64,000 bases of DNA from assembly GCF_030733745.1 (NCBI RefSeq), contig NZ_JASHIK010000001.1:124001-188000 (forward strand). Reading direction: 5' to 3'. Shown here in pieces: positions 7,274-32,936 of the stretch. This DNA is from Stappia sp. MMSF_3263. GTDB lineage: Bacteria; Pseudomonadota; Alphaproteobacteria; Rhizobiales; Stappiaceae. A program made the translations under genes and the position numbers. The stretch's first letter is position 1; each line of letters starts with the position of its first letter. Below the pieces are notes generated by a model, which worked only from the letters and a program-made list of their open reading frames with translations, searched no databases and had not been told where the DNA came from.

Positions 7274-7936
7274 TCAAGGGTTTTCGAGATCATACGGCCG
7301 TGACAGAAGCACGGCCCTGCCGCCACCGAGGCGAACACGGATGCCGTTCGCATCTCGCGCCACCCGGTTGGAGAGCGTCAGCGAGCCGCCCATCGGCACA
7401 TCGCGGTCGAGCAGCGGCCAGTCGACACCTTCCAGCGTCAGCGCCGTGAGGTCGGTCAGCGCAAGGACCGAGAAGAGCGACCCGGCCGGCAGGTCGAGCG
7501 CCTGCTCGCCCGGCACCAGCGGCCAGGCTTCCTCGTGGCCGCTTGTCAGCAACACAGGCAATCCGCGCGCCCTCAGCGCCGCGCCATGCAGGAGGTTCTG
7601 CAAGGCGTGGTCGGAACGCTCGCCGCCAAGCGCGCCGGCGATGACCAGCCGGTCCGCGCCGCGCGCCATCGCTTCCTCCGCCGCAAGTACCCCGTCGGTC
7701 GCGTCCTTGGCAGCCGGGTGGCTCTGCCGTGCCACATGCGACCAGTCGCCGGCCAGAGCGGGCGGGCTGGAATCGAAGTCGCCGACCCACAACTCCGGCT
7801 CGACGCCGAGAACCCCGGCGTGACGCATGCCTCCATCGGCGGCGATCGTGCGCGCACCCGCGATCTGGCGCCGGATTCTCCGTGTGGGGGTGAGATCGCC
7901 GCCCAGCAGTATCAGGAACGGTGTCGTTCCGGTCAT
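7274..7936 (-). CDS. thiN: Thiamine diphosphokinase
   Basis: Converts thiamine to thiamine diphosphate, the active cofactor and the riboswitch ligand. Family motifs are all present: the ADGGMRHA strand, WVGDFDS, KDATDGVLA (the DxT-D pyrophosphate/metal site) and GALGGERSDHALQNL (GGxxxRxDH). At 220 aa it matches the bacterial ThiN family. It is convergent with thiX and lies outside the riboswitch transcript, so it is not directly TPP-controlled from 273-353. With ThiE making thiamine phosphate, its main role here is probably salvage of imported thiamine. Confidence 0.9.
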   Translation of the reverse strand: MTGTTPFLILLGGDLTPTRRIRRQIAGARTIAADGGMRHAGVLGVEPELWVGDFDSSPPALAGDWSHVARQSHPAAKDATDGVLAAEEAMARGADRLVIAGALGGERSDHALQNLLHGAALRARGLPVLLTSGHEEAWPLVPGEQALDLPAGSLFSVLALTDLTALTLEGVDWPLLDRDVPMGGSLTLSNRVARDANGIRVRLGGGRAVLLSRPYDLENP

Positions 7937-7961
7937 CGGGCATGCCTCCCGTGCGATATGA

Positions 7962-7989
7962 GATATTACGAAATCCGCCTTGTAATATC
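7962..7989. promoter_or_regulatory. Inverted repeat between thiN and the COG4091 gene
   Basis: GATATTAC (7962-7969) and GTAATATC (7982-7989) are perfect 8-base inverted arms separated by 12 bases. The site is centred 55 bases before the 8031 start and 39 bases before the thiN start. A divergent intergenic site of this symmetry suggests a dimeric repressor or activator. The regulator is not identified. Confidence 0.45.
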
Positions 7990-8030
7990 GGCTTTTTCCC
8001 GGCCATGCTCGCGCAAAAGGGGAGGACTTT

Positions 8031-9377
8031 ATGAATCTGTCTCACATGCTCGCCCACCGCGCGCAGTCCGGGCGGCCGCTCCGCGTTGCGCTCATCGGTG
8101 CCGGCAAGTTCGGCTCCATGTACCTGACGCAGGCCCGCCTGACCGTGGGCGTGCACATCACGGCGATCGTCGATCTCGACCCGGGCCGGGCGCGTGCGAC
8201 GCTGGCCACTTGCGGCTGGCCGGAGGAGCAGTCGGCGGCAACTTCGTTGAATGACGCCGTCCAGGCCGGGACGACCTTCATCACCGACGACCTTGCCGGG
8301 GTGCTTGACGACGAGCGCGTCGAGGTGGTGATCGAGGCGACTGGCGATCCCTCCGTCGGCATCCGCCATGCGCTTGCCGTGATCGAGGCCGGCAAGCATG
8401 TGGTCATGGTCAATGTCGAGGCGGATGTGCTGGCCGGGCCTCTGCTGGCGCGCAAGGCCGAGAAGGCAGGCGTCGTCTACTCACTTGCCTGGGGTGATCA
8501 GCCGGCGTTGATCTGCGAGCATGTCGACTGGGCCAGGACCTGCGGTTTCAAGGTCGTGTGTGCCGGCAAGGGCACTCGCTATCTGCCCACCTATCACCAA
8601 CTGACCCCGGACACCGTCTGGGATGTGCTGGTGCAGTATCTCGGCATCACCGACCGAAGCCTGATCAATCCGAAGATGTTCAACTCGTTCCTGGACGGCA
8701 CCAAGTCCGGCATCGAGATGACGGCAGTGTGCAACGCGACCGGCCTCCTGCCGCAACCGGACGGGCTGTCTTTCCCCCCGGCGAGCCGCTTCGAGCTTTC
8801 CACGGTGCTGAGGCCGAAGGATGCGGGCGGTGCCCTGCCGATCACCGGCACGACCGAAGTCGTCTCCTCTTTGACCCGTGAGGGCGTCGACGTCCCGCAT
8901 CATCTGGCCATGGGTACCTTCGTCGTGATTGAGGGCGAGACGGATTACGCGCGCCAGTGTTTCCGCGAGTATCACATGCTCGAGGACGAGAGCGGGCGTT
9001 TCGCCGCGCTCTACCGGCCAACCCATATGATCGGCATGGAACTCGGGCTGTCGGTGGCCTCCGCCGTCCTGCGCAAGGAGCCGACGGGCGCGCCGCGCGG
9101 CTTTGTCGCGGATGTGGTGGCGACGGCCAAGCGCGACCTTAAGGCGGGAGAGATGCTGGACGGCGAAGGCGGGGCGACGGTCTGGGGCAAGCAGCAACCG
9201 GCCGAGGCCTCGGTGCGGGCCGGTCTGCTGCCGCTGGGTCTTGCCACCCACGTCAAGCTGGTGCGCGATGTCGCGGAAGGCGCGATGCTCGCCTGGGACG
9301 ATGTCGCCATCGACACGACGCAGACGGCGGTGCGCATCAGACGCGAGATGGAAGAGGCCTTCGTGCCGGCTGCCTGA
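8031..9377 (+). CDS. Homoserine-dehydrogenase-like oxidoreductase with C-terminal SAF domain (COG4091 type)
   Basis: A 448-aa protein with an N-terminal Rossmann fold (VALIGAGKFGSMYL, residues 19-32), a central catalytic-like domain resembling homoserine dehydrogenase, and a C-terminal SAF domain (about 370-435, PLGLATHVKLVRDVAEGAMLAWDDVAI). It matches the COG4091 pattern of predicted NAD(P)-dependent dehydrogenases, whose substrates are mostly unknown. SAF domains often lead to wrong FlgA annotations; there is no flagellar context. GGGGAGGACTTT precedes the ATG. It is followed by convergent L-serine dehydratase. A canonical ThrA/Hom role is unlikely because no other threonine genes are near. 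Confidence 0.75.
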   Translation: MNLSHMLAHRAQSGRPLRVALIGAGKFGSMYLTQARLTVGVHITAIVDLDPGRARATLATCGWPEEQSAATSLNDAVQAGTTFITDDLAGVLDDERVEVVIEATGDPSVGIRHALAVIEAGKHVVMVNVEADVLAGPLLARKAEKAGVVYSLAWGDQPALICEHVDWARTCGFKVVCAGKGTRYLPTYHQLTPDTVWDVLVQYLGITDRSLINPKMFNSFLDGTKSGIEMTAVCNATGLLPQPDGLSFPPASRFELSTVLRPKDAGGALPITGTTEVVSSLTREGVDVPHHLAMGTFVVIEGETDYARQCFREYHMLEDESGRFAALYRPTHMIGMELGLSVASAVLRKEPTGAPRGFVADVVATAKRDLKAGEMLDGEGGATVWGKQQPAEASVRAGLLPLGLATHVKLVRDVAEGAMLAWDDVAIDTTQTAVRIRREMEEAFVPAA

Positions 9378-22592: not shown

Positions 22593-22637
22593 TTGAACGT
22601 CCGGCAAAAAATATGAATACTGATTCATAATTCATAT
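22593..22637 (+). promoter_or_regulatory. TetR-gene promoter with overlapping operator
   Basis: A TTGAAC -35 (22593-22598) and an AATACT -10 (22616-22621) are spaced 17 bases. Over the -10 lies an inverted repeat: ATATGAAT (22611-22618) with ATTCATAT (22630-22637), plus an inner TGATTCAT (22621-22628). The 27-nt window 22611-22637 matches the site at 32907-32933, in front of the minus-strand transporter operon, at 20 of 27 positions. The position fits autorepression by the TetR gene that follows. Confidence 0.65.
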
Positions 22638-22656
22638 TGAGCCGGGTGAGCATGTC

Positions 22657-23445
22657 GTGAGCAAGACGAAGGCGGGCAAGGGCGCGGAGCGGTCACCGGA
22701 TCGCGGCCGCGCGACACGCGGGTCAAAGGCCGGTGTGAAGACAACCGCCCCCAAGACAGAACCATCCAAGAATGGCGCGACCGGGCGGGGCGGGGCAAGC
22801 GCCTTGCAGCGGCCCGAGGCGAAAGGGGAGCTTGCCGCCGGCATGCCGAAGACGGCACGCGGGGCGGCGACGCGGCGCGCCATCCTGGAAGCGGCCGAAC
22901 GGGCCATCGGCCGGCAGGGCTTCAACGAGGCGTCGATCGGCTCGATCACCCGCGAGGCGGGCGTCGCGCAGGGCACCTTCTACATCTATTTCGCCAGCAA
23001 GGACGAGGTGTTCTCGGAGCTTGTCGCCGAGATGGGCCGCATGCTGCGTCACGCCATCAGCGAGGCGACGTCCGGTTATGCTGATCGTTTGGAAGCCGAG
23101 CGCGAGGGCCTGCGTGCCTTTCTCGGCTTCGTTTCGGCCCATCCGGAGCTCTATCGGATCGTCCAGGAGGCGCAATTCGTCGACCGGGATGCCTATCTCG
23201 CCTATTTCCGTACCTTTGCGGACGGCTATCGCGAGGGACTGGAACGCGCTGCCGGCAACGGCGCCATCCGGCCGGGCGATGCCGAAGTCCGCGCCTGGGC
23301 GCTGATGGGCATCGCCCGCTCGCTCGGCGAGTTTCAGGTTGTCTTCGGTGGCAAGACGCCGCTCGACACGATGGTCGAGGTCGCCCACGACCTGATCGAG
23401 AACGGATTGAAGGCGCGGGACGACCAGGACGAGGCCGGCCGATGA
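22657..23445 (+). CDS. TetR-family transcriptional regulator
   Basis: A 262-aa TetR protein. The helix-turn-helix is at about residues 68-115 (RRAILEAAERAIGRQGFNEAS, then ITREAGVAQGTFYIYFASKDEVF), followed by a variable ligand-binding domain (TetR_C). The first 65 residues are a low-complexity Lys/Arg/Ala/Gly/Pro extension not usual for the family. I use GTG 22657 because the operator-promoter lies just upstream; ATG 22843 (MPKTARGAATRR) is an in-frame alternative that would remove the extension but leave a 200-base leader. The stop overlaps the crotonase start, so it is the first gene of the catabolic operon. Ligand probably an acyl-CoA or acid of the pathway (inferred). Confidence 0.83.
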   Translation: MSKTKAGKGAERSPDRGRATRGSKAGVKTTAPKTEPSKNGATGRGGASALQRPEAKGELAAGMPKTARGAATRRAILEAAERAIGRQGFNEASIGSITREAGVAQGTFYIYFASKDEVFSELVAEMGRMLRHAISEATSGYADRLEAEREGLRAFLGFVSAHPELYRIVQEAQFVDRDAYLAYFRTFADGYREGLERAAGNGAIRPGDAEVRAWALMGIARSLGEFQVVFGGKTPLDTMVEVAHDLIENGLKARDDQDEAGR

Positions 23446-24236
23446 CCGCCACCGTGCATCTCGATCGTGCCGGTGAGGCTGCATGGTTGACGCTCGACCG
23501 GCCGGGGCGGGGCAACGCGCTGGTGCCGGAACTGCTGGCGGCCTTGCGCGCCCGGATCGCGGAGGCCCGTACCGCCGGCGCCCGCGTGCTTGTGGTGACC
23601 GGCGCCGGGCGGGCCTTTTCCGCCGGCGGGGATGTTGGCGTCTTCGCCGCTCATGCGTCCGACACGGTCGCCTTGCGGGCCTATGCGGCAGAGATCGTCG
23701 GGGAACTCAACGCGGCGGTCCTTGATCTGCTGGCCTTTCCCGCACCTGTCCTTGCCGCCGTCAACGGTCCGGTCACGGGAGGGTCCGCCGGGCTGATCCT
23801 CGCTGCCGACATGGTTGCGATGAGCGATACGGCCTTCCTGCAACCCTATTACAGCGAGATCGGCTTCGCCCCCGACGGTGGCTGGACGGCGCTTCTGCCC
23901 GAGCGCATCGGCAGCGCGCGGGCGCTGAAGGCACTGTATCTCAACGAGCGCCTTTCGGCACACGACTGCCTGAAGCTCGGCATTGCCGATCATGTGTGCG
24001 AGGCAGACCGACTGGGCGCCGTCACGGGCGGGCAGGTCGCGATGATCCTGGAAAAGGACGCGGCAAGCCTTGCGGTTTCGCGCGCGAATGTCTGGAGCCC
24101 GGCGCGCCGGGCCCGGCTCGCGACCGCGCTGGAGCGCGAGCGCGAGGGGTTCCTGTCGTTGATCGCGCGCCCTGAAACGCTGGAGCGCATGCAGCGGTTC
24201 CTCGCCGCGGTCCGTCCGGCGGAGCCCGCGAGATGA
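23442..24236 (+). CDS. Crotonase-fold acyl-CoA hydratase/isomerase family protein
   Basis: A 264-aa crotonase. The oxyanion-hole segments are RAFSAGGD (about 63-70) and NGPVTGGSAG (about 107-116). The two glutamates of canonical enoyl-CoA hydratase are missing: GGSAGLIL replaces GGGCELAM, and LQPYYSEIG replaces the QPE segment. It has Asp in IGFAPDGGWTALLP, as PaaG-type isomerases do (PDGGGTW-like). So it is probably an isomerase or another crotonase activity rather than a standard hydratase. ATGA overlaps on both sides link it to the TetR gene and the CoA ligase. Confidence 0.82.
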   Translation: MTATVHLDRAGEAAWLTLDRPGRGNALVPELLAALRARIAEARTAGARVLVVTGAGRAFSAGGDVGVFAAHASDTVALRAYAAEIVGELNAAVLDLLAFPAPVLAAVNGPVTGGSAGLILAADMVAMSDTAFLQPYYSEIGFAPDGGWTALLPERIGSARALKALYLNERLSAHDCLKLGIADHVCEADRLGAVTGGQVAMILEKDAASLAVSRANVWSPARRARLATALEREREGFLSLIARPETLERMQRFLAAVRPAEPAR

Positions 24237-25780
24237 TCCACGTGACGGACATGGCGGCGAAGCGTGCCGAGTTGACGCCGGATAAGATCGCCTTTCGCGA
24301 CCACGAGACGGGGGCGGCTCTCAGCTTTTCCGAGGTCGATCGCCGGGCCAACCGTATGGCGCGCTGGTTATGCGCGCGCGGATGTGCAGCCGGCGACCGG
24401 ATCGCGGTGCTGTGCCACAATCATCCGGATTTCTTCGTGCTGCTCTTTGCCGCCCAGAAGGCAGGTCTCGTTCTGCTGCCTCTCAACTGGCGGCAACCGG
24501 CGGCCGAACTGGAGCCCGTTCTGGTCGAGGCGGGCGCGCGCCTTCTCCTGCATGATGCGGCGACGGCGGAGACGGCGGCGGAGCTGGCGCGGCGAACGGG
24601 ATGCGAGCGGGTTGGATTCGCCGATGCCGGCGAGAGTGCCGGCGCGGATGCGGATGGAGCCTCGCTCGAGGCGCTGCTGGAGGGGATGAGCGAGGAGGCT
24701 TTCGGCGAGGGTCGGATCGATGCCGAGGCGCCCTGGTATCTGCTCGCCACGTCCGGTACCACCGGCACGCCGAAACTGGTGATCCAGACGGCGGCGATGG
24801 CCTGGGCGAATGCCGTGAACTATTCTCAGGCAACCGGGCTTTTGGCCAGCGACACGGGCGTCAACTATCTGCCGTTGTTCCACACTGCCGGGATCAATCT
24901 CTTCGCGCTGCCGCTGTTTCTCGCCGGTGGCCAGACCATCGTGCTGCGCAAGTTCGACGCACCGGCAGTGCTGAAGCTGATCGCCGGGGGCGCCGTGACC
25001 GCCTTTTTCGGCGTGCCGGCGATCTATCAGGCGCTGGCGCTGGAGCCGGATTTCGCGCATGCGGATTTCTCGGCACTGCGTTCGCTCGGTTGCGGCGGCG
25101 CGCCGATGCCTGCGCCCTTGCTTGAAACCTATCTCAAGCGCGGTGTCACCGTGTGCAACGGCATGGGCATGACGGAAACCGGTCCGACCGTGTTCCTCGC
25201 CGATGCGGACCGCGCGGCGGAGAAGATCGGTTCGGTCGGCAAGGCGCAGATCCTTGCCGAGGTACGTCTCGTCACAGCCGACGGCAGCGTCGTGGAAGGG
25301 GCGGGCGAGGGCGAGTTGCAGATCCGCGGTTCCGGCGTCACGCCCGGATACTACGGCAACCCGGAGGCAACGCTGGCCGCCTTCGTGGACGGGGGGTGGC
25401 TGCGTTCGGGCGATGTCGCCCGCCGCGACGGGGACGGCTACTACTACATCGTCGATCGCATCAAGGACATGTACATTTCCGGCGGCGAGAATGTCTATCC
25501 GGCCGAGGTCGAGCGGGTGCTGGTCACTCATGCGGACATTCTGGATGCGGTCGTGGTCGGCGTGCCGGACGAAACGTGGGGAGAGGTGGGCGCCGCCTAT
25601 CTGATCCCGAGACCTGGTGCGGAGATCGACACGGCGAGGCTCCTTGCCTGGTGCCGCCAGAGACTTGCCGGCTACAAGGTGCCGCGCAGCGTGACGGTCG
25701 TTGCGGACCTGCCGCGCACAGCCGCGGGCAAGGTGCAGAAGCACGTCCTGAAATCCATGCATGAAGAGGGCGCCCGATGA
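24233..25780 (+). CDS. Acyl-CoA synthetase (AMP-forming ligase)
   Basis: A 515-aa ANL-superfamily ligase. The P-loop-like motif is LLATSGTTGTPKLVIQT; A5 is GMGMTETGPTVF, A7 is LRSGDVARRDGDGYYYIVDR, A8 follows at IKDMYISGGENVYPAEVE, and the A10 lysine is in PRTAAGKVQKHVL. It activates a carboxylic acid to its CoA thioester. The specificity is not readable, but the FadD/CaiC-like layout and neighbours suggest a medium-chain, alicyclic or aromatic acid. It overlaps the crotonase and MaoC genes by four bases each. It defines the entry step of the TetR-controlled pathway. Confidence 0.87.
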   Translation: MIHVTDMAAKRAELTPDKIAFRDHETGAALSFSEVDRRANRMARWLCARGCAAGDRIAVLCHNHPDFFVLLFAAQKAGLVLLPLNWRQPAAELEPVLVEAGARLLLHDAATAETAAELARRTGCERVGFADAGESAGADADGASLEALLEGMSEEAFGEGRIDAEAPWYLLATSGTTGTPKLVIQTAAMAWANAVNYSQATGLLASDTGVNYLPLFHTAGINLFALPLFLAGGQTIVLRKFDAPAVLKLIAGGAVTAFFGVPAIYQALALEPDFAHADFSALRSLGCGGAPMPAPLLETYLKRGVTVCNGMGMTETGPTVFLADADRAAEKIGSVGKAQILAEVRLVTADGSVVEGAGEGELQIRGSGVTPGYYGNPEATLAAFVDGGWLRSGDVARRDGDGYYYIVDRIKDMYISGGENVYPAEVERVLVTHADILDAVVVGVPDETWGEVGAAYLIPRPGAEIDTARLLAWCRQRLAGYKVPRSVTVVADLPRTAAGKVQKHVLKSMHEEGAR

Positions 25781-26199
25781 CGGAAGACTCGCACACCGCC
25801 CCGTCCGCCACTCTCGCTCTGCCTGTCGGAGAGATTGTCGCGACCTGGACTCCAAGCCAGTCGGATTTCGATGCCTTTGCCGAACTGTCCGGCGACGACA
25901 ATCCGATCCATGTCGATCCGGCCTTTTCCGCTCGCACCCGCTTCGGCCGGACGGTGTCGCACGGCATGCTGCTCTATTCCCGGCTCTGGGCGCTGCTGCG
26001 CGCCCGTCACCCGGGCCGCCGCCACGCCATGCAGTCGCTGATGTTTCCCAATCCTGCCTACGCGGGGGAGGAACTCGCCTTCCGGTTCTCGGCTGCCGAG
26101 ACGAAAGGGAAGGACGAGACGATGGTCATCGAGATCCGGCGGACCGCGGATGGAAAGGTGGTGCTGTCGGGTGAGTGCCGGATGGAGGAGATCGGATGA
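25777..26199 (+). CDS. MaoC-family dehydratase
   Basis: A 140-aa single hot-dog domain with the hydratase-2 signature FAELSGDDNPIHVD at about residues 35-47, which supplies the catalytic Asp and His, followed by FGRTVSHGMLLYSRLW. It likely hydrates an enoyl-CoA with R stereochemistry. It overlaps the ligase gene and the next hot-dog gene by four bases each (ATGA). Confidence 0.85.
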   Translation: MTEDSHTAPSATLALPVGEIVATWTPSQSDFDAFAELSGDDNPIHVDPAFSARTRFGRTVSHGMLLYSRLWALLRARHPGRRHAMQSLMFPNPAYAGEELAFRFSAAETKGKDETMVIEIRRTADGKVVLSGECRMEEIG

Positions 26200-26561
26200 C
26201 GCTGGAACTCGGTCAGACGGCGGAAGTTCGCCGCGTCTTTCCCGCAAGTGATGCGGGTGCCTTCGCGGCGCTAGCGGGTCTTGCCGGTGTTCCGGACGCA
26301 GTGCCGGAGCCGCTGATCGGCGGGCTTTTTTCCTATCTCCTGGGCGTCGAATTGCCCGGTTTCGGCACCAACTATCTCAAGCAGGAGATGCGCTTTCTTG
26401 CACCGGCCGGTTTCGACGAGGAACTGACGGCGCGCGTGAGGGTGACGCGGCTTCGGCCGGAGAAACATCTTGTCGACCTGGAGACGGTTTGCGAGTGCGC
26501 GGACGGTCGGCGCGTGTGCGAAGGCAGGGCGCTTGTCTATGTAGAAGATGTTGGCGCCTGA
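26196..26561 (+). CDS. MaoC-like hot-dog protein without the hydratase motif
   Basis: A 121-aa protein whose C-terminal strands (NYLKQEMRFLAPAGFDEELTARVRVTRLRPEKHLVDLETVC) follow the MaoC hot-dog fold. In the place of the SGDxNPxH signature it has LAGLAGVPDAVPEPLIGGLFSYLLG, with neither the Asp nor the His. The overlap with the preceding MaoC gene suggests the two form a heteromeric hydratase in which this is the non-catalytic subunit. Alternatively it has a thioesterase-like role. Last gene of the plus-strand operon. Confidence 0.7.
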   Translation: MTLELGQTAEVRRVFPASDAGAFAALAGLAGVPDAVPEPLIGGLFSYLLGVELPGFGTNYLKQEMRFLAPAGFDEELTARVRVTRLRPEKHLVDLETVCECADGRRVCEGRALVYVEDVGA

Positions 26562-26586
26562 AGCGCCGGACATGCGTCCCCCAACG

Positions 26587-26614
26587 AAAAACGCCGCCGG
26601 CAAGCCGGCGGCGT
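26587..26614 (-). terminator. Rho-independent terminator of the cold-shock gene
   Basis: A perfect 10-base-pair stem (26591-26600 with 26605-26614) with a 4-base loop. Read on the minus strand it is followed by TTTTT (26590-26586). It lies 33 bases behind the csp stop. On the plus strand there is no T-run, but the same hairpin may slow read-through from the MaoC operon. Confidence 0.85.
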
Positions 26615-26647
26615 TCGTCAAACAGCTTTCAGGCCGAGGAGCGCGTG

Positions 26648-26860
26648 TTACGCGAGCTCGAGCTGGGCGGCCTGCAGGCCACGGCCGCGACGGTCTTCTT
26701 CCGTCACGAAAGTCAGGGTCGTGCCTTCCGCCGGGACGGCGATGCCCGAGCGCTCGAAAGCGGTGATGTGGACGAACACATCCTTGCCGCCTTCGGCCGG
26801 GGTCACGAAACCGAAGCCACGATCATGGTTGAAGAACTTGAGGGTGCCGGTCTGGCGCAT
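26648..26860 (-). CDS. Cold-shock protein, CspA family
   Basis: A 70-aa OB-fold nucleic-acid-binding protein with RNP1 (RGFGFV, residues 14-19) and RNP2 (DVFVHI, 27-32). It starts TGTLKFFNHDRGFGF as alphaproteobacterial CspA proteins do, and acts as an RNA chaperone. AGGAG lies 10 bases upstream of the ATG. The gene has its own terminator and a 277-base upstream region with hairpins. It interrupts the two halves of the TetR-linked locus but has no obvious functional tie to it. Confidence 0.93.
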   Translation of the reverse strand: MRQTGTLKFFNHDRGFGFVTPAEGGKDVFVHITAFERSGIAVPAEGTTLTFVTEEDRRGRGLQAAQLELA

Positions 26861-26894
26861 GGGGGAAACTCCTGTCCCGAGTCAAAACGTTAAA

Positions 26895-26966
26895 GCGCAA
26901 GTAAGCGCGCTTGCTTGCGCGAGCGTGGCATTCAGAAACGGGAAAGGCAGTTCTGTTCGACAGAAC
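26895..26966 (-). promoter_or_regulatory. Hairpins upstream of the cold-shock gene
   Basis: Two inverted repeats lie 35 to 106 bases upstream of the csp start. The first pairs 26895-26906 with 26909-26920 (12 bases with one imperfect pair, minimal loop). The second, GTTCTGT-TCG-ACAGAAC (26950-26966), is a perfect 7-base inverted repeat. If transcribed they would structure the csp leader RNA, where cold-shock mRNAs often carry temperature-dependent folds. The second could instead be an operator. Confidence 0.4.
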
Positions 26967-27137
26967 CGGTCACGGAGACCGGGAGAGAGCCGCATACCGA
27001 AACTTTCTTAACCGGGGTTCGAATTTTCAAGCCCGCTTTTGCCGGACCTAGGCCCGACGCGCGAAGTGTATGCGAAAACACGGAAGCCAGCAAGCGCCGT
27101 GGTGCAGGCGAGGGATGCGGAACGCGGCTGTCTGCCA

Positions 27138-27947
27138 TCAGTTGGGGGAGCGGCGCGGATCGATCACTTCCCCCAGCATGGCGTTGAACGGACCGGGTTC
27201 CTCCAGATGCGGGGCATGGCCGGATGCGGAGAATGTGTGGAGGTGCGCGCGCGCCAGCTGAGAACATTGCCACTGGGCGGCACCGGCGTCATAGAGCTGG
27301 CTTTGCGCCCCGCGCGCGAGCACCACGGGCAGTTCGAGGCGCGGGATCAGGTCGCGAAAGTCCTGCGCGGTCAGGGACCGCCACATGGCGGCAAGCGACC
27401 TGGGGTCGGCGGCGCGCATTTCCCTCTCCGCGAAGGAAAGTAGGTTCCGGGGTGCCCCGGATGCGAAGGTGCGCCGCGCGGTCGGTGCGGCGAGCAGCGG
27501 CCATTGCGTCTCGATCGCCTTGAGAAAGACCGCATTGCGGTCGCCGTCCAGGCCGCTGCGCGACCCGAATTGCCAGTCGGGCGCGTTGACCACCTTGGGC
27601 GACATGTCCTCCACCACGAGCGCCGACAGGCGGCCCGCGCCGTGCCGTTCGATCATCGACCAGGCGACAAGCGCGCCCATCGACCAGCCGACAACGGCGG
27701 CATTCTCGATCCCGTCTTCCGCAAGCAGGTCGTGAAGCGCGTCGGCGCCCGCCTCGATGGTCGGCGCGAGGCGCTCGGCGCTGCGGCCGTGACCGGGAAG
27801 GTCGGGGGCCAGCACCAGTGTCTGTTCGCCCAGCGCCTGCATTTGTGGTTCGAAGAAGCCGCCGTGGCAGGACCAGCCATGCAGCAGGACAAGGGGGCAC
27901 CGCCCGCGCCGCAGCGTGCCGGCGCGGCGGACGAAAAGACTGGTCAT
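27138..27947 (-). CDS. Alpha/beta-fold hydrolase
   Basis: A 269-aa hydrolase of the BioH/MhpC type. The oxyanion segment is LLHGWSCHGGFF, the nucleophile is Ser89 in VVGWSMGALVAW, and the catalytic His lies in SASGHAPHLEEPGPF near the end. I start at ATG 27947, which overlaps the livM stop by four bases; the longer frame reads into livM. As the last gene of the transporter operon it may release a substrate from an ester or thioester taken up by the transporter. The substrate is unknown. Confidence 0.82.
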   Translation of the reverse strand: MTSLFVRRAGTLRRGRCPLVLLHGWSCHGGFFEPQMQALGEQTLVLAPDLPGHGRSAERLAPTIEAGADALHDLLAEDGIENAAVVGWSMGALVAWSMIERHGAGRLSALVVEDMSPKVVNAPDWQFGSRSGLDGDRNAVFLKAIETQWPLLAAPTARRTFASGAPRNLLSFAEREMRAADPRSLAAMWRSLTAQDFRDLIPRLELPVVLARGAQSQLYDAGAAQWQCSQLARAHLHTFSASGHAPHLEEPGPFNAMLGEVIDPRRSPN

Positions 27948-29002
27948 CCCCGTCTCCGCAGCCGGCCGACCACGCCGTCGGGGAAGAAATAGACGGACAG
28001 GATGAAGAGCACGCCGAGCCACAGCAGCCAGCGCTCGGGAGCGAGCAGCACGGACACCAGCGGCAACGCCTCGGTTGCCTGCTCGGCCGCGCCCATCAGG
28101 TTCTGAAGGTAGGTCTGGGCGAGGATGAAGAGCGTTGCGCCGATCACGGCGCCGTACATCGTGCCCATTCCGCCGATGACAACCATCAAGAGGATGTCGA
28201 TCATGATCTCCATCGAAAGCGTCGTCGCCGGGCCCGTGTAGCGGATCCAGATCGCCAGCAGTGCTCCGGCAAGACTGGCCATGGCGGCCGACAGGACGGT
28301 TGCCGTCGTTCGGTACCAGATCACCCGGTAGCCGATCGCCTCGGCGCGGAAGGCATTGTCGCGCACCGCCTTGAGTGTCGTGCCGAAGGGCGAATTGACG
28401 ATCCGCAGCATGGCAAGGAAGAGCGCCAGCGCGCAGAAGAAGACGAGGTAATAGGCCAGTAGCCGTCCGTCGAGGCGCACGTCGAACAGACGGAAATCGG
28501 CGAGGCGGAAAGCCGGCGTCAGTTCGCGCGGTATGCGGTAGGTGAGACCGTCCTCGCCCCCGGTAAAACCGGACATCTGCGACACGAGCACGGCGAAGGC
28601 GCTGGCCACCGCGAGTGTCACCATGGCGAAGAAGATCGCCTTGACCCTAAGCGAGAAGAGCCCGATGGCGAGAGCCAGAACGGCTGAGACGAGCGTGCCG
28701 GCGACGACGCCGACGCCGATCGCGCTGAAGCCCGGACCCATGACTGAAAGCGCGATGGCAACACCATAGGCCCCGATGCCGAAGAACATCGTGTGGGCGA
28801 AGGACACGATTCCCGTATATCCGAGCAGCAGGTCGTAGCTCGCCACCAGTACGATGAAGATGCAGATGCGCGCGGCCGTGTCGAGTGGCTTCGTGCCGGG
28901 AAAAAGGAACGGCGCGAAAGCAAGCGCCAGGCCGATCAGGATCAGGATCGCGGCCAGGATGCGGCTTTGCGGACGGTCCCCGGAGAACAGCGTGTTGATC
29001 AT
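27944..29002 (-). CDS. livM: Branched-chain-type ABC transporter, permease LivM (second system)
   Basis: A 352-aa LivM-class permease: YDLLLGYTGIVSFAHTMFFGIGAYGVAIAL near residue 55, LRVKAIFFAMVTLAVASAFAVL, and the ATPase-contact loop FRAEAIGYRVIWYRTTATVLSAAMASLAGAL. It is more divergent from the window's other LivM than orthologues would be, fitting a different substrate. It lies 7 bases behind livH and overlaps the hydrolase gene. Confidence 0.85.
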   Translation of the reverse strand: MINTLFSGDRPQSRILAAILILIGLALAFAPFLFPGTKPLDTAARICIFIVLVASYDLLLGYTGIVSFAHTMFFGIGAYGVAIALSVMGPGFSAIGVGVVAGTLVSAVLALAIGLFSLRVKAIFFAMVTLAVASAFAVLVSQMSGFTGGEDGLTYRIPRELTPAFRLADFRLFDVRLDGRLLAYYLVFFCALALFLAMLRIVNSPFGTTLKAVRDNAFRAEAIGYRVIWYRTTATVLSAAMASLAGALLAIWIRYTGPATTLSMEIMIDILLMVVIGGMGTMYGAVIGATLFILAQTYLQNLMGAAEQATEALPLVSVLLAPERWLLWLGVLFILSVYFFPDGVVGRLRRRG

Positions 29003-29009
29003 GTTGGAC

Positions 29010-30038
29010 CTATTTCGCCTTGACCACGGGATAGAGGCCCTGCGGTCGCCACATCAGCACGCCGACCATCAGAGCGATGGTCGAGACAAGCGCGATCTTG
29101 GGGGCGAGAAACGCCATGTAGTTGGCGAGCAGCCCGACGAGCAGCGCGCCGATGAAACAGCCCTCGATTGAGCCGAGGCCGCCGATGATGACGACGACGA
29201 AGACGAGCACCATGATTTCCGAGCCCATGTGTGCGGTGATCGTCTCCTGGTAGAGGCCCCACATGACGCCGCCGAGGCCGGCAAGCGCGGACCCTGCCAT
29301 GAAGACCAGCAGGAACAACCGGCGGATGCGGTAGCCAAGCGCTTCCACCATTTCGCCGTTCTCGACGCCGGCGCGCACCAGCAGGCCGAGCCGCGTGGCG
29401 CGCAGCACGTGGCGCATGGCGAGGAAGAGCACGAGGCCGATGCCGACGGCGAAGACGCGGTACTTCTCGATCGCGGCCTCGCCGAAGATGAAGGAGCCCT
29501 GCAGCGACTGCGGCCGGGCGACATGGATCGCGTCAGGCCCCCAGACCACGTGGATGAGCTGCTGGGCGACGATCAGCCCGCCCATGGTGACGAGGATCTG
29601 CTTCAGATGATGGCCGTAGACCGGTTTGACAATCACCCGCTCGAAGGCAAGTCCGAGAGCGCCGGTGATCGCCATGGATGCAAGGATCGCCAGGAAGACG
29701 GCGGCAAGGTTGAGGATGACGGCCGGGCTCTGGGTCCAGCCGGCGAGCCAGGCGAGCACGGTGAAGCCGACGAAGGCGCCGACGGAAACGAAGGCGCCAT
29801 GGCCGAAATTGATAACGTCCATCAGGCCGAAGACAACGGTCAGCCCGGATGCCATGATGAAGATCATCAGCCCCATGGCAAGGCCGGCAACGGTCAGCGT
29901 GAGCCACACGGAGGGATCGCCGATGGCGGCAAGGCCGGCGAGCGCCATGACGGGGGCAAGCAGCAAGGGTGCCGCCCGCCTGACCCGCTCCAGCGGCGTC
30001 GGCCCGACGAGTTTGGGGCGGATCGCGGTTTCGCTCAT
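29010..30038 (-). CDS. livH: Branched-chain-type ABC transporter, permease LivH (second system)
   Basis: A 342-aa LivH-class permease. It has the family block GLTVVFGLMDVINFGHGAFVSVGAFVGF after an N-terminal extension of about 60 residues. IIGGLGSIEGCFIGALLVGLLANY forms the late cytoplasmic loop. It overlaps the livF stop by four bases. Confidence 0.85.
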   Translation of the reverse strand: MSETAIRPKLVGPTPLERVRRAAPLLLAPVMALAGLAAIGDPSVWLTLTVAGLAMGLMIFIMASGLTVVFGLMDVINFGHGAFVSVGAFVGFTVLAWLAGWTQSPAVILNLAAVFLAILASMAITGALGLAFERVIVKPVYGHHLKQILVTMGGLIVAQQLIHVVWGPDAIHVARPQSLQGSFIFGEAAIEKYRVFAVGIGLVLFLAMRHVLRATRLGLLVRAGVENGEMVEALGYRIRRLFLLVFMAGSALAGLGGVMWGLYQETITAHMGSEIMVLVFVVVIIGGLGSIEGCFIGALLVGLLANYMAFLAPKIALVSTIALMVGVLMWRPQGLYPVVKAK

Positions 30039-30760
30039 TGGTGTTCCTCCAGGCTGAGGCCCATCAACTGTTCCTGCAGGCCGGCGTCGGCGGCGAGCGC
30101 GCGCATGTCGCCCGCATGGACGATGCGCCCGTCATCCATCACCGAGACGGTGTCGCCAAGCGCCGAGGCCATGGCGAAGTTCTGTTCGACCAGCAGGATG
30201 GTGGTGTCGGTCTCCTTGAGCTCGCGCAAGGCGGAGGTCATGGATGCGATGATCGCCGGGGCAAGCCCCTTGCTGGGCTCGTCGATCAGGATCAGTCGGC
30301 GTGGCTCGATGATTGCACGGGCAACGGAGAGCATCTGCTTCTGTCCGCCCGACAGCGTGCCGGCCGTCTTGTCCCAGAACGTTGCGATCGGCGGAAAGAG
30401 CTCCTTGATCCAGGCGAGCCGGCGTGCGTCGAACGGGCCGTCGACGGCGGCAAGCCGCATGTTTTCCGCCACGGTCAGGTCCGAGAAGACACCCATGTTC
30501 TCTGGCACATAGGCGATGCCGGAGCGAGCGATCTCGGGTGTCGCGAGGGAATGGATCGCCTTGCCGTCGAACAGGATCTCACCGGCGCTCGCCCGCCACA
30601 GCCCCATGATCGTGCGCAGCGTGGTGGACTTGCCGGCTCCGTTGCGACCAAGCAGCACGGCAACGCCGCCGCGCGGCACGTCGAGCGTGACGTCCTGCAG
30701 GATGTGGTAGGGACCGATATGCGTGTGCACGCCGGCAAGGCGCAGGAGCATGTCAGCCAT
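30035..30760 (-). CDS. livF: Branched-chain-type ABC transporter, ATP-binding protein LivF (second system)
   Basis: A 241-aa ABC ATPase of the LivF class. Walker A is GRNGAGKST, then YVPENMGVFSDLTVAENMRLA, the signature is LSGGQKQMLSVARAI, and LILIDEPSKGLAP is Walker B. It overlaps livG by 8 bases and livH by four. Confidence 0.86.
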   Translation of the reverse strand: MADMLLRLAGVHTHIGPYHILQDVTLDVPRGGVAVLLGRNGAGKSTTLRTIMGLWRASAGEILFDGKAIHSLATPEIARSGIAYVPENMGVFSDLTVAENMRLAAVDGPFDARRLAWIKELFPPIATFWDKTAGTLSGGQKQMLSVARAIIEPRRLILIDEPSKGLAPAIIASMTSALRELKETDTTILLVEQNFAMASALGDTVSVMDDGRIVHAGDMRALAADAGLQEQLMGLSLEEHQ

Positions 30761-31544
30761 GGACCACCTCCGTGCTTGCCGCTTCGGGCGCCTTGCCGAG
30801 ATAGGCTTCCTGGACGATCGGCGAGCACATCACCTCGCCCGGTTCGCCGTCGGCGACCAGCGCGCCGTTGTGCAGCACGATGATCCTGTCGGCGAGCGTG
30901 CGAATGACGTCCATCTTGTGCTCCACCAGAAGGATGGTGCGGTCGCGATCCTTCTTGAGGTCGCGGATCAGGTCGAGAATGACGGGAACCTCGTCGACGC
31001 TCATGCCGGCCGTGGGTTCGTCAAACATCAGCACCTGAGGGCTGAGGGCGATCATCAGCGCCACTTCCAGCTTGCGCTGGTCGCCATGGGGCAGGGCCGA
31101 GACCGGCATGTCGCGCTTGTCGATGAGCCGCACCTCGGCAAGCACGTGCTCGGCCCGCTCGATCAGTTCCACATGGGCGCTAGCGCGCGAGAAGATGTCG
31201 AACCCGCGATTGGCACGGGATTGCACGACGAGGCGAACGTTTTCCCGCACGCTGAGGTTCGCAAACAGGTTGGTGAGCTGGAAGGCACGGCCGATGCCAC
31301 GGTCGCACCGTTCAGCGACGCCCTTGCGGGTGATGTCCTCGCCGTTGAGGCGGACGCGTCCCGCGCTTGCACGCAACTGGCCGGAAACCAGGTTGAAATA
31401 GGTGGTCTTGCCGGCGCCGTTCGGCCCGACGATGGCCGTCAGCGTGCCGCGCTCGAAAGCGCAGGAAACGTTGTCGACGGCGACATGGCCGCCGAAGCGG
31501 ATCGTCAGGTTCTCTGTCTCGAGAACGGGCGGTTCGCGAGTCAC
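30753..31544 (-). CDS. livG: Branched-chain-type ABC transporter, ATP-binding protein LivG (second system)
   Basis: A 263-aa ABC ATPase of the LivG class. Walker A is GPNGAGKTT and Walker B is VLMFDEPTAGMS. The signature region reads SALPHGDQRKLEVALMI, a divergent form in which LSGGQ is replaced by LPHGD; this variant occurs in some LivG proteins. I prefer the GTG start at 31544 because GGAG lies 9 bases upstream. The frame extends to ATG 31610 but that adds 22 residues unlike the family. Confidence 0.84.
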   Translation of the reverse strand: MTREPPVLETENLTIRFGGHVAVDNVSCAFERGTLTAIVGPNGAGKTTYFNLVSGQLRASAGRVRLNGEDITRKGVAERCDRGIGRAFQLTNLFANLSVRENVRLVVQSRANRGFDIFSRASAHVELIERAEHVLAEVRLIDKRDMPVSALPHGDQRKLEVALMIALSPQVLMFDEPTAGMSVDEVPVILDLIRDLKKDRDRTILLVEHKMDVIRTLADRIIVLHNGALVADGEPGEVMCSPIVQEAYLGKAPEAASTEVVHG

Positions 31545-31634
31545 GGCGCGGATCTCCGGCAGTTGGGTGGAATATCGCAGGCAATCGTGGCCGTCCGCCC
31601 CCGCTTGCATGCGGGCGGGGGCGGACCAAGCGGA

Positions 31635-32831
31635 TCAGCGTGTGTTGCGGACCGGGATCGCCATGTCCTCGATCTTCAACTCGCGGACCAGTTCGGGAAT
31701 GCCCCATTCGACGTCCGGATCGACGCGGATCTTGAAGTGGTACATCGACTGCAGCGCCTGATGGTCCTCCGCACGGAAGGTCATGGTGCCCTTCGGTGTC
31801 TCGAAGGACATGCCCTCCATCGCCGTGATCAGCTCCTCGGTGTCGGTCGAGCCGGCCTTGCGGATGCCTTCCACGACAGCGATGGCAGCGGACATTCCGC
31901 CGGCGGTGAAGAAGTCCGGCGGTGAGCCGTGGCGCTTCTCGTGCTCGGAGACGAGCCAGTCATTGGCCGGGTTCTTCGGGATATCGTGATAGTAGTAGGT
32001 GGCGCCCTCCATGCCCGGCAGCGCCTTGTAGGCCTTCATCGCGGCCAGGATGTTGCCGCCGGTGGCGATCTCGATGCCGAAGCGCTCCGGCTCCATCGCC
32101 TTGATCTTGCCGATCGGATTGTTGCCGCCGGCCCAGATGACGAACAGGAACTTGCGGCCCTCGACATCCTTGAGGGCGTCGAAGATGCGCTGGGCGCTGG
32201 CCGTGAAGTCCTGGGTGTCGGTCGGGGCGTATTCCTCGAAGGCAAGCTTCGCACCGGTACCGGCAAGCGCCTCGCGGAATGCGGCGACGCCGTCGCGGCC
32301 GAAAGCGTAGTCCTGGGCGAGGGTCGCGATGGTGACGCCCTCCTTGCCGAGCGCCACCGCATTTGCGATGGCGTCCTGAGAGGAGTTGCGCCCGGTGCGG
32401 AAGATGTAGCGGTTCCAGTTCTCGCCTGTGATGCTATCGGCCACGGCCGGCTCGACGATCAGCAGCTTGCCGTACTCCTCGGCAACGGGAAGCATGGCAA
32501 GCGCCACGCCCGAGGAGACCGGCCCAACTGCGAGGTCCACCTCGTCGTCGCCATAGGCCTCGGCCAGGGCCGCGCGGGCGATGTCAGGCTTCAGCTGGGT
32601 GTCCTTCTCGATCACGACAATCTTGCGGCCGTCGATCTCCATCGTGCCGTCGGTCGCGTATTCCAGCCCCATCATGAAGCCGGTATGCGACTGCTTGGCA
32701 TAGGCCTCAAGCGCGCCCGTCTTGCCGTAGACATGGGCGATTTTGATGTCCTGCGCGAATGCGGCGGCACCCAGCGGTGCGGCGGCAAAGCCGGCGGCCA
32801 GCGCGGCCACCAAGGCGAATTGTCTGTGCAT
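31635..32831 (-). CDS. Branched-chain-type ABC transporter, substrate-binding protein (second system)
   Basis: A 398-aa periplasmic binding protein with a signal peptide (MHRQFALVAALAAGFAAAPL, ending GAAAFA) and a mature start QDIKIAHVYGKTGALEAYAKQ. The mature domain has the two type-I lobes of Peripla_BP_6; GPVSSGVALAMLPVAEEYGKLL and IFRTGRNSSQDAIA line the cleft. This subfamily is often linked to uptake of aromatic or alicyclic carboxylates rather than amino acids (family knowledge, not proof). AGGGAGTAACGCC precedes ATG 32831. It is first in its operon and the site matching the TetR operator lies 76-102 bases upstream. Confidence 0.83.
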   Translation of the reverse strand: MHRQFALVAALAAGFAAAPLGAAAFAQDIKIAHVYGKTGALEAYAKQSHTGFMMGLEYATDGTMEIDGRKIVVIEKDTQLKPDIARAALAEAYGDDEVDLAVGPVSSGVALAMLPVAEEYGKLLIVEPAVADSITGENWNRYIFRTGRNSSQDAIANAVALGKEGVTIATLAQDYAFGRDGVAAFREALAGTGAKLAFEEYAPTDTQDFTASAQRIFDALKDVEGRKFLFVIWAGGNNPIGKIKAMEPERFGIEIATGGNILAAMKAYKALPGMEGATYYYHDIPKNPANDWLVSEHEKRHGSPPDFFTAGGMSAAIAVVEGIRKAGSTDTEELITAMEGMSFETPKGTMTFRAEDHQALQSMYHFKIRVDPDVEWGIPELVRELKIEDMAIPVRNTR

Positions 32832-32906
32832 GGCGTTACTCCCTGTTGGCGCATGCAAGCCGTGCCCGTTCCTCCGCGAGCATGTCTGCCTCGTTGCACC
32901 TCGTAT

Positions 32907-32936
32907 ATATGACGCATGATTCATGTTTCATGTCAA
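32907..32936 (-). promoter_or_regulatory. Transporter-operon promoter with TetR-type operator
   Basis: On the minus strand TTGACA (32936-32931) is a perfect -35 and TCATAT (32912-32907) the -10, 18 bases apart. The 27-nt stretch 32907-32933 covers the spacer and -10. It matches the site in the TetR promoter (22611-22637) at 20 of 27 positions, including all of TGATTCAT (32917-32924) and the following TTCAT. A repressor bound here would block RNA polymerase. Confidence 0.65.

Follow-up and report, generated by a model that had tools for sequence, protein, structure and literature searches.

Two convergent operons within a 64,000-nucleotide stretch of the Stappia sp. MMSF_3263 genome (hereafter the window, which lies on contig 11 of the 5.02-Mb host genome) very probably make up a single TetR-controlled regulon of eleven genes, in which a TetR-family protein would act through two matching 27-bp operators, one (O1) over the promoter of its own operon and the other (O2) over that of a distant transporter operon. 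The genes are those for the TetR protein, an enoyl-coenzyme A (CoA) hydratase, an acyl-CoA ligase, a MaoC-like hydratase, and a hotdog-like protein in the first operon, and for a periplasmic binding protein, the LivG, LivF, LivH, and LivM components of an ATP-binding cassette (ABC) transporter, and an alpha/beta hydrolase in the second (Table 1). A preliminary description of the window had proposed such a regulon, and sequence comparison supports the proposal through the conservation of the sites, their uniqueness in the genome, and the way in which they track the TetR gene.

Results

Two Matching Operators in One Genome

O1 and O2 had been described as sharing 20 of 27 positions, including the core TGATTCAT followed by TTCAT; on recounting, we again obtained 20/27, with both elements present in both sites, and the gene calls place both sites between genes, as had been claimed. 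When the window is searched on either strand, the best match to O1 elsewhere is O2, at 20/27, whereas across 200 windows simulated with a first-order Markov model the best match has a mean of 15.8 and a maximum of 18 positions (0/200 at 20 or more). Because each site also matches its own reverse complement (22/27 for O1 and 20/27 for O2), the two are pseudo-palindromes and have more in common than a shared word. Their common pseudo-palindrome is approximately ACATGAAnnnTGAnTCAnnnTTCATGT, for which the only perfect matches genome-wide are these two places; the 17-base half pattern TGATTCATNNTTCATNT is likewise matched perfectly only at O1 and O2. When two mismatches are allowed, this half pattern also picks up self-overlaps of O1 and O2 and three other places, and the palindrome core, searched with up to three mismatches, gains four places, each with three mismatches, so that the chance matches feared by the preliminary description are few and weak, and a search for a wider regulon in the host genome, to two and three mismatches, returned only such weak extra matches and lent no support to one. 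We found no point in favor of the two sites resembling each other by chance; the simulations argue against it, as do the family scan, the positions of the fetched matches, and the matrix scan of distant homologues described below, and its probability is negligible.

Conservation of the Sites and Linkage to the TetR Gene

The preliminary description had suggested looking for the sites at orthologous loci, and several scans located them there, upstream of both the TetR and the transporter genes. Within a set of 61 related genomes (TetR orthologues at E ≤ 1e-50), a TetR-side site with at least 20/27 bases is present in 24 of 25 testable orthologues, one further contig being truncated, and a binding-protein-side site with at least 22/27 bases in 24 of the 25 fetched loci from TetR-bearing genomes. 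All 13 same-genus loci examined, counting the window, carry O2 unchanged (27/27), as does one locus from each of two further genera in the family. When 87 family genomes were scanned for the exact motif, 51 gave matches, whereas the reversed pattern, used as a control, gave none; all 30 of the matches that were fetched lie upstream of a TetR or binding-protein gene. The sequence TTGACATGA is found in 24/24 aligned site-bearing loci (23 from the window's family and one from a different family), and column conservation, computed solely from site-bearing loci, is 0.90 within the operator on the TetR side and 0.92 on the transporter side, compared with 0.46–0.50 in the 45-base flanks. The arrangement of the two units varies: in one genome (G017) they lie ∼160 kb apart and the sites are kept at both, and in another (G055, stretch L108) a single site is located between the binding-protein gene and the TetR gene.

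The sites can be followed well beyond the close relatives. With a matrix trained solely on the window's family and a threshold of 15 bits, we scanned 80 named homologue loci (L116–L195), including those of Phreatobacter, Ferrovibrio, Hoeflea, Maritalea, Actibacterium, and Pararhodobacter; one TetR and 29 binding-protein positions were untestable, the gene or its upstream region lying beyond the locus end, and L157–L195 includes unclassified metagenome-assembled genomes whose family membership is not established. Sites were detected at 37/40 (L116–L156) and 37/39 (L157–L195) testable TetR genes, and at 20/21 and 30/30 testable binding-protein genes, respectively. Three of the five TetR misses (L126, L143, and L175) have a site just outside the searched interval, the other two (L146 and L169) have a lone palindrome, and the sole binding-protein miss is again L146; the other sequence of L157–L195 (1.46 Mb) holds four matches, all directly upstream of TetR genes, outside the interval. 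In a survey of 297 genomes of the order (cut-offs E ≤ 1e-45 for TetR and 1e-110 for the binding protein), the site is present in 20 of 21 scanned TetR loci, with a score of 31.5 for L196; the matrix used here included one Phreatobacter and one Amorphus site in its training set, and the Phreatobacter scores are therefore not independent. Among 337 genomes of the class, the host genome included, 10 carry the TetR gene, again counting the host, and six of the nine other TetR loci score at least 15, the reversed controls reaching at most -9.7. It should be noted that these site counts are not independent events, because many loci are closely related and some have identical sites.

A further tie between the two operons comes from gene order, which was surveyed in the homologue loci other than about L146–L163. 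In 14 loci, one operator is common to divergently oriented transporter and TetR units, which is separate evidence that the transporter belongs with the TetR operon; Phreatobacter and Ferrovibrio are among the loci in which most, if not all, of the eleven genes are arranged around one such shared operator.

The sites and the transporter also track the TetR gene. Of the 61 related genomes, 26 carry TetR and 31 the binding protein, and all 26 TetR-bearing genomes have both; in the order, the corresponding numbers are 30 and 43 of 297 genomes, and again all 30 TetR-bearing genomes have the binding protein (hypergeometric probability of the co-occurrence 2.9e-31, uncorrected for ancestry). All 10 scanned order-level loci of TetR-bearing genomes score at least 24.7. 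By contrast, none of 12 binding-protein loci fetched, of 13 in TetR-less genomes of the order, has a site (best score -2.0), and the five binding-protein loci of TetR-less genomes in the 61-genome set are all without one (matches of at most 18, with reversed controls reaching 17), one locus being common to these two samples. If the sites belonged to a different DNA-binding protein or were a conserved promoter element, with TetR a bystander, they would not be expected to vanish with the TetR gene where the transporter persists, and a promoter element or a site for another protein also sits poorly with the lack of any other perfect match in the genome; we regard this explanation as very unlikely.

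Several observations weigh against the regulon as we read it. Three distant TetR homologues (34–35% identity) have no upstream site, three of the nine class-level TetR loci score only 8.6–9.8, at L169 and L202 the TetR side is limited to a 20-bp palindrome, and in genome G014 (L106/L146), which keeps the regulon genes, the TetR side has one 20-bp palindrome and the transporter side is siteless; in the window itself, the -10 hexamers are weak in an automatic scan. The G014 genome, with its TetR, enzyme, and transporter genes and reduced operators, is a possible case of regulon decay.

Promoter and Operator Architecture

The preliminary description had placed both sites over promoter elements. 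This held for the inferred elements: the hexamers TTGAAC and AATACT of the TetR operon and the TTGACA of the transporter operon can be placed by inspection, but neither promoter passed an automatic consensus scan, and the -10 assignments are for that reason tentative. The putative -10 hexamer AATACT (22616–22621) lies inside O1, spaced 17 bases from TTGAAC, and O1 itself begins 12 bases past TTGAAC and ends 19 bases short of the GTG codon at 22657. A CTTG-type hexamer is found 11–13 bases 5' of the operator in most aligned loci (not in L025 and L034), and an in-frame start codon is present within ∼30 bases of the site in 18 of 21 loci inspected, the window included. On the minus strand, a perfect TTGACA runs into O2, and this hexamer is kept at all 24 of the aligned site-bearing loci. 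O2 covers the initial 18 bases of the longest binding-protein open reading frame (31635–32924); inspection puts the start of the protein at 32831, with a signal-peptide-like sequence at its N terminus, which leaves O2 intergenic.

Steric blocking fits this geometry, because O1 and O2 cover the inferred promoter elements. TetR-type activators exist, FasR being an example in the available part of PMC7382501, and a TetR protein that activates, or that both activates and represses, could use the same two sites; the location of O1 over the inferred -10 element and leader, and of O2 from the -35 edge toward the -10, speaks against activation, which we hold to be improbable.

One way to read the 27-bp operator is as a pair of 20-bp palindromes, each of the form ACATGAAT-N4-ATTCATGT and shifted by 7 bp relative to each other, with the second the weaker. 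A lone 20-bp palindrome, ACATGAAY-N4-RTTCATGT, is found at the TetR promoters of L169, L177, L180, and L181, and with one change at that of L146, which suggests that the 20-bp palindrome is the elementary module and the 27-bp site a pair of such modules. Judged from this layout, the operator may take two dimers.

A FadRSa-like Regulator

As had been claimed, the window holds a single TetR gene, one of 34 TetR_N matches in the genome; its TetR_N domain scores 51.9 bits against a cut-off of 24. The best PDB sequence match of the protein is FadRSa (E 3.8e-27), which in Sulfolobus acidocaldarius is the TetR-type repressor of a lipase/beta-oxidation cluster (PMC6449355, from which, here and below, excerpts are used). 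The predicted structure (predicted local distance difference test score 91.9) leads to the same protein: the top six Foldseek matches are FadRSa chains, with template modeling (TM) scores (query) of up to 0.89. Conversely, when FadRSa is compared with the 34 TetR proteins of the host, the window TetR scores 95 bits and the other 33 at most 31 bits. The NCBIfam models for FadR (NF053878; 45.7 against a cut-off of 200 bits) and PsrA (23.9 against 300) do not recognize it. In the window, an apparent Lys/Arg/Ala-rich N-terminal tail of ∼62 residues (22657–22842) precedes the conserved PKTARG motif, the conserved part starting at 22843; the length of the tail varies widely among relatives, and the Rhodobacterales and Hoeflea loci inspected have a short one.

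We examined 16 FadRSa contact positions in the window TetR and its 80 homologues; 7 are kept and 9 replaced. The equivalents of Gly48, Tyr51, Tyr53, Arg73, and Phe97 are invariant in all 81 sequences, that of Arg86 is present in 78/81, and the Phe126 position is F or Y. In FadRSa, Arg73 and Arg86 are important in the acyl-CoA response and Gly48 in DNA binding (PMC6449355). Two findings weigh against the regulon model here. First, Asn37, Tyr47, Leu49, Phe52, Phe68, Lys77, Met101, Phe111, and Arg132 are the contacts replaced. Second, among 21 other host TetR proteins aligned, Gly is found at position 48 in 13 and Tyr at position 51 in 15, so that the kept DNA-contact positions are not diagnostic; only three of these alignments extend as far as the last ligand position, and the set is kept in none of the three. 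Homologues listed in the excerpts of PMC6449355 are archaeal only, and the authors see no link by descent with bacterial FadR proteins; a bacterial relative that appears from alignment to keep these positions is of some note. A tentative proposal, which could well prove wrong, is that the window TetR represents a bacterial offshoot of the FadRSa lineage of Archaea, that its acyl-CoA pocket is homologous to that of FadRSa, and that its operator takes a dimer of dimers.

On the strength of the relatedness to FadRSa and of the gene content, we propose that the inducer is probably an acyl-CoA. Many TetR proteins bind ligands other than acyl-CoA, and five FadRSa ligand positions (Phe68, Lys77, Met101, Phe111, and Arg132) are substituted here; TetR might thus bind both sites and be released by the free acid or another small molecule, a variant of the regulon model whose odds overlap with those of the model itself. 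The acyl-CoA enzymes encoded in the operon and the kept Arg73 (81/81) and Arg86 (78/81), residues of the FadRSa acyl-CoA response (PMC6449355), make such a ligand the unlikelier choice.

Genes of the Two Operons

The features of the regulon are collected in Table 1. The transporter has the make-up of its branched-chain (HAAT) type, with a Peripla_BP_6 protein, two BPD_transp_2 permeases, and two ATPases. We rejected a urea transporter (Urt) identity, since the scores are below the NCBIfam cut-offs (UrtA, 65 against 493; UrtD, 206 against 304; UrtE, 200 against 286). Among solved structures, the binding protein comes nearest to 3n0x (E 2.6e-182) and 3nnd (E 4.9e-175), which belong to one binding-protein family and are, to our knowledge, unassigned. 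A literature search on these two entries returned nothing relevant to the substrate among the matches listed, and a search on RPA4397, presumably the locus tag of 3n0x, returned nothing. The neighborhoods of TetR-less transporters contain hydrolases and unrelated genes, with no clear pointer to the substrate; in one of them (L110, genome G018), a bile-acid-symporter-like (SBF) gene (7676–8650) is located between LivG and the binding-protein gene. In many relatives, the alpha/beta hydrolase is linked either to the transporter operon or to that of TetR. The space between the two convergent operons of the window holds a small cold-shock-domain gene (26648–26860, minus strand), which is again seen close to the transporter operon in several relatives, including the TetR-less L110.

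Table 1. Positions of operators, promoter elements, and genes in the window
Feature	Coordinates	Strand	Remarks
Operator O1	22611..22637		27-bp pseudo-palindrome; putatively autoregulatory, over the inferred TetR -10 and 5' leader
Operator O2	32907..32933		Conserved site over the transporter promoter
Possible -35 (TTGAAC) of TetR operon	22593..22598	+	Inferred by inspection
-35 (TTGACA) of transporter operon	32931..32936	-	Conserved hexamer; overlaps the edge of O2
TetR-family regulator, FadRSa-like	22657..23445	+	TetR_N, PDB, and Foldseek matches; GTG start probable, inferred
Enoyl-CoA hydratase/isomerase family	23442..24236	+	ECH_1
Acyl-CoA ligase	24233..25780	+	AMP-binding; best PDB matches fatty-acyl-CoA synthase and feruloyl-CoA synthetase (entry names)
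MaoC-like hydratase	25777..26199	+	MaoC_dehydratas
Second small hotdog-like protein	26175..26561	+	4HBT below cut-off (E 0.008); after MaoC in many relatives
Periplasmic binding protein, branched-chain-type (HAAT) ABC transporter	31635..32831	-	Peripla_BP_6
LivG-type ATPase	30753..31610	-	Profile match
LivF-type ATPase	30035..30760	-	Profile match
LivH-type permease	29010..30038	-	Profile match
LivM-type permease	27944..29002	-	Profile match
Alpha/beta hydrolase	27138..28022	-	Abhydrolase; last gene of the transporter operon

Discussion

The circuit looks like real but conventional gene control; its binding, repression, stoichiometry, inducer, and substrate are what we infer from the data above. 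In the model that we favor, TetR would be a local repressor that binds O1 over its own promoter and O2 over the transporter promoter, silencing both convergent operons by blocking the promoters sterically. The transporter would bring in a carboxylic acid, or else an ester that the alpha/beta hydrolase then cleaves; the ligase would convert the acid to its CoA thioester, and that acyl-CoA, or one downstream of it, would bind TetR and thereby derepress both operons.

A precedent for this logic is MbdR, the TetR-type protein that represses the 3-methylbenzoate genes of Azoarcus, as described in the available part of PMC4424350. There, one TetR protein acts on its own gene, on an operon with an ABC transporter and a CoA ligase, and on a pathway operon, the operators cover promoter elements, and the inducing compound is the CoA thioester that the ligase produces. 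Steric repression lifted by a ligase-made acyl-CoA, as described for MbdR with comparable genes, is the simplest reading of the circuit in Stappia. The comparison is one of circuit logic and not of protein sequence: the MbdR pathway is anaerobic and aromatic, and by inspection the MbdR operator ATACN10GTAT is absent from O1 and O2.

The likeness to FadRSa, again within the excerpts of PMC6449355, concerns both protein and circuit. In both systems there are few sites, located near the regulator; the operator is semi-palindromic and, in FadRSa, takes one or two dimers; the targets include acyl-CoA enzymes and a hydrolase; and equivalents of Gly48, Arg73, and Arg86 are kept. Unlike FadRSa, the window TetR is bacterial, would control an ABC importer, and differs at 9 of 16 contacts, and O1 and O2 lie over promoters, whereas most FadRSa sites are at least 130 bp upstream of promoters. 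FadP, PsrA, and LiuQ are also TetR-type regulators, of fatty-acid and branched-chain amino acid degradation regulons, that were described by the same comparative method in the accessible portion of PMC5343134; by that description, FadP and LiuQ are unique to Betaproteobacteria, which sets them apart from the window TetR. Bacillus FadR belongs to the same superfamily and has the same fold (3whb, 5gp9), the identity to the B. subtilis protein being ∼19%. In the open-access literature, we recognized no published account of this TetR/transporter regulon among the matches listed.

With two sites, eleven genes, and a presence in several alphaproteobacterial families, the regulon is tight and testable, and its genes outline a pathway of acid uptake and activation. 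The gene set, together with the two kept CoA-contact arginines, points to an acyl-CoA signal, and naming the inducer would for this reason help to name the substrate of the 3n0x/3nnd family of binding proteins. The window TetR also provides a bacterial relative for a class of regulators described from Archaea; if its tentative place in the FadRSa lineage is correct, acyl-CoA sensing of the FadRSa kind would be common to Archaea and Proteobacteria by transfer, and not archaeal only.

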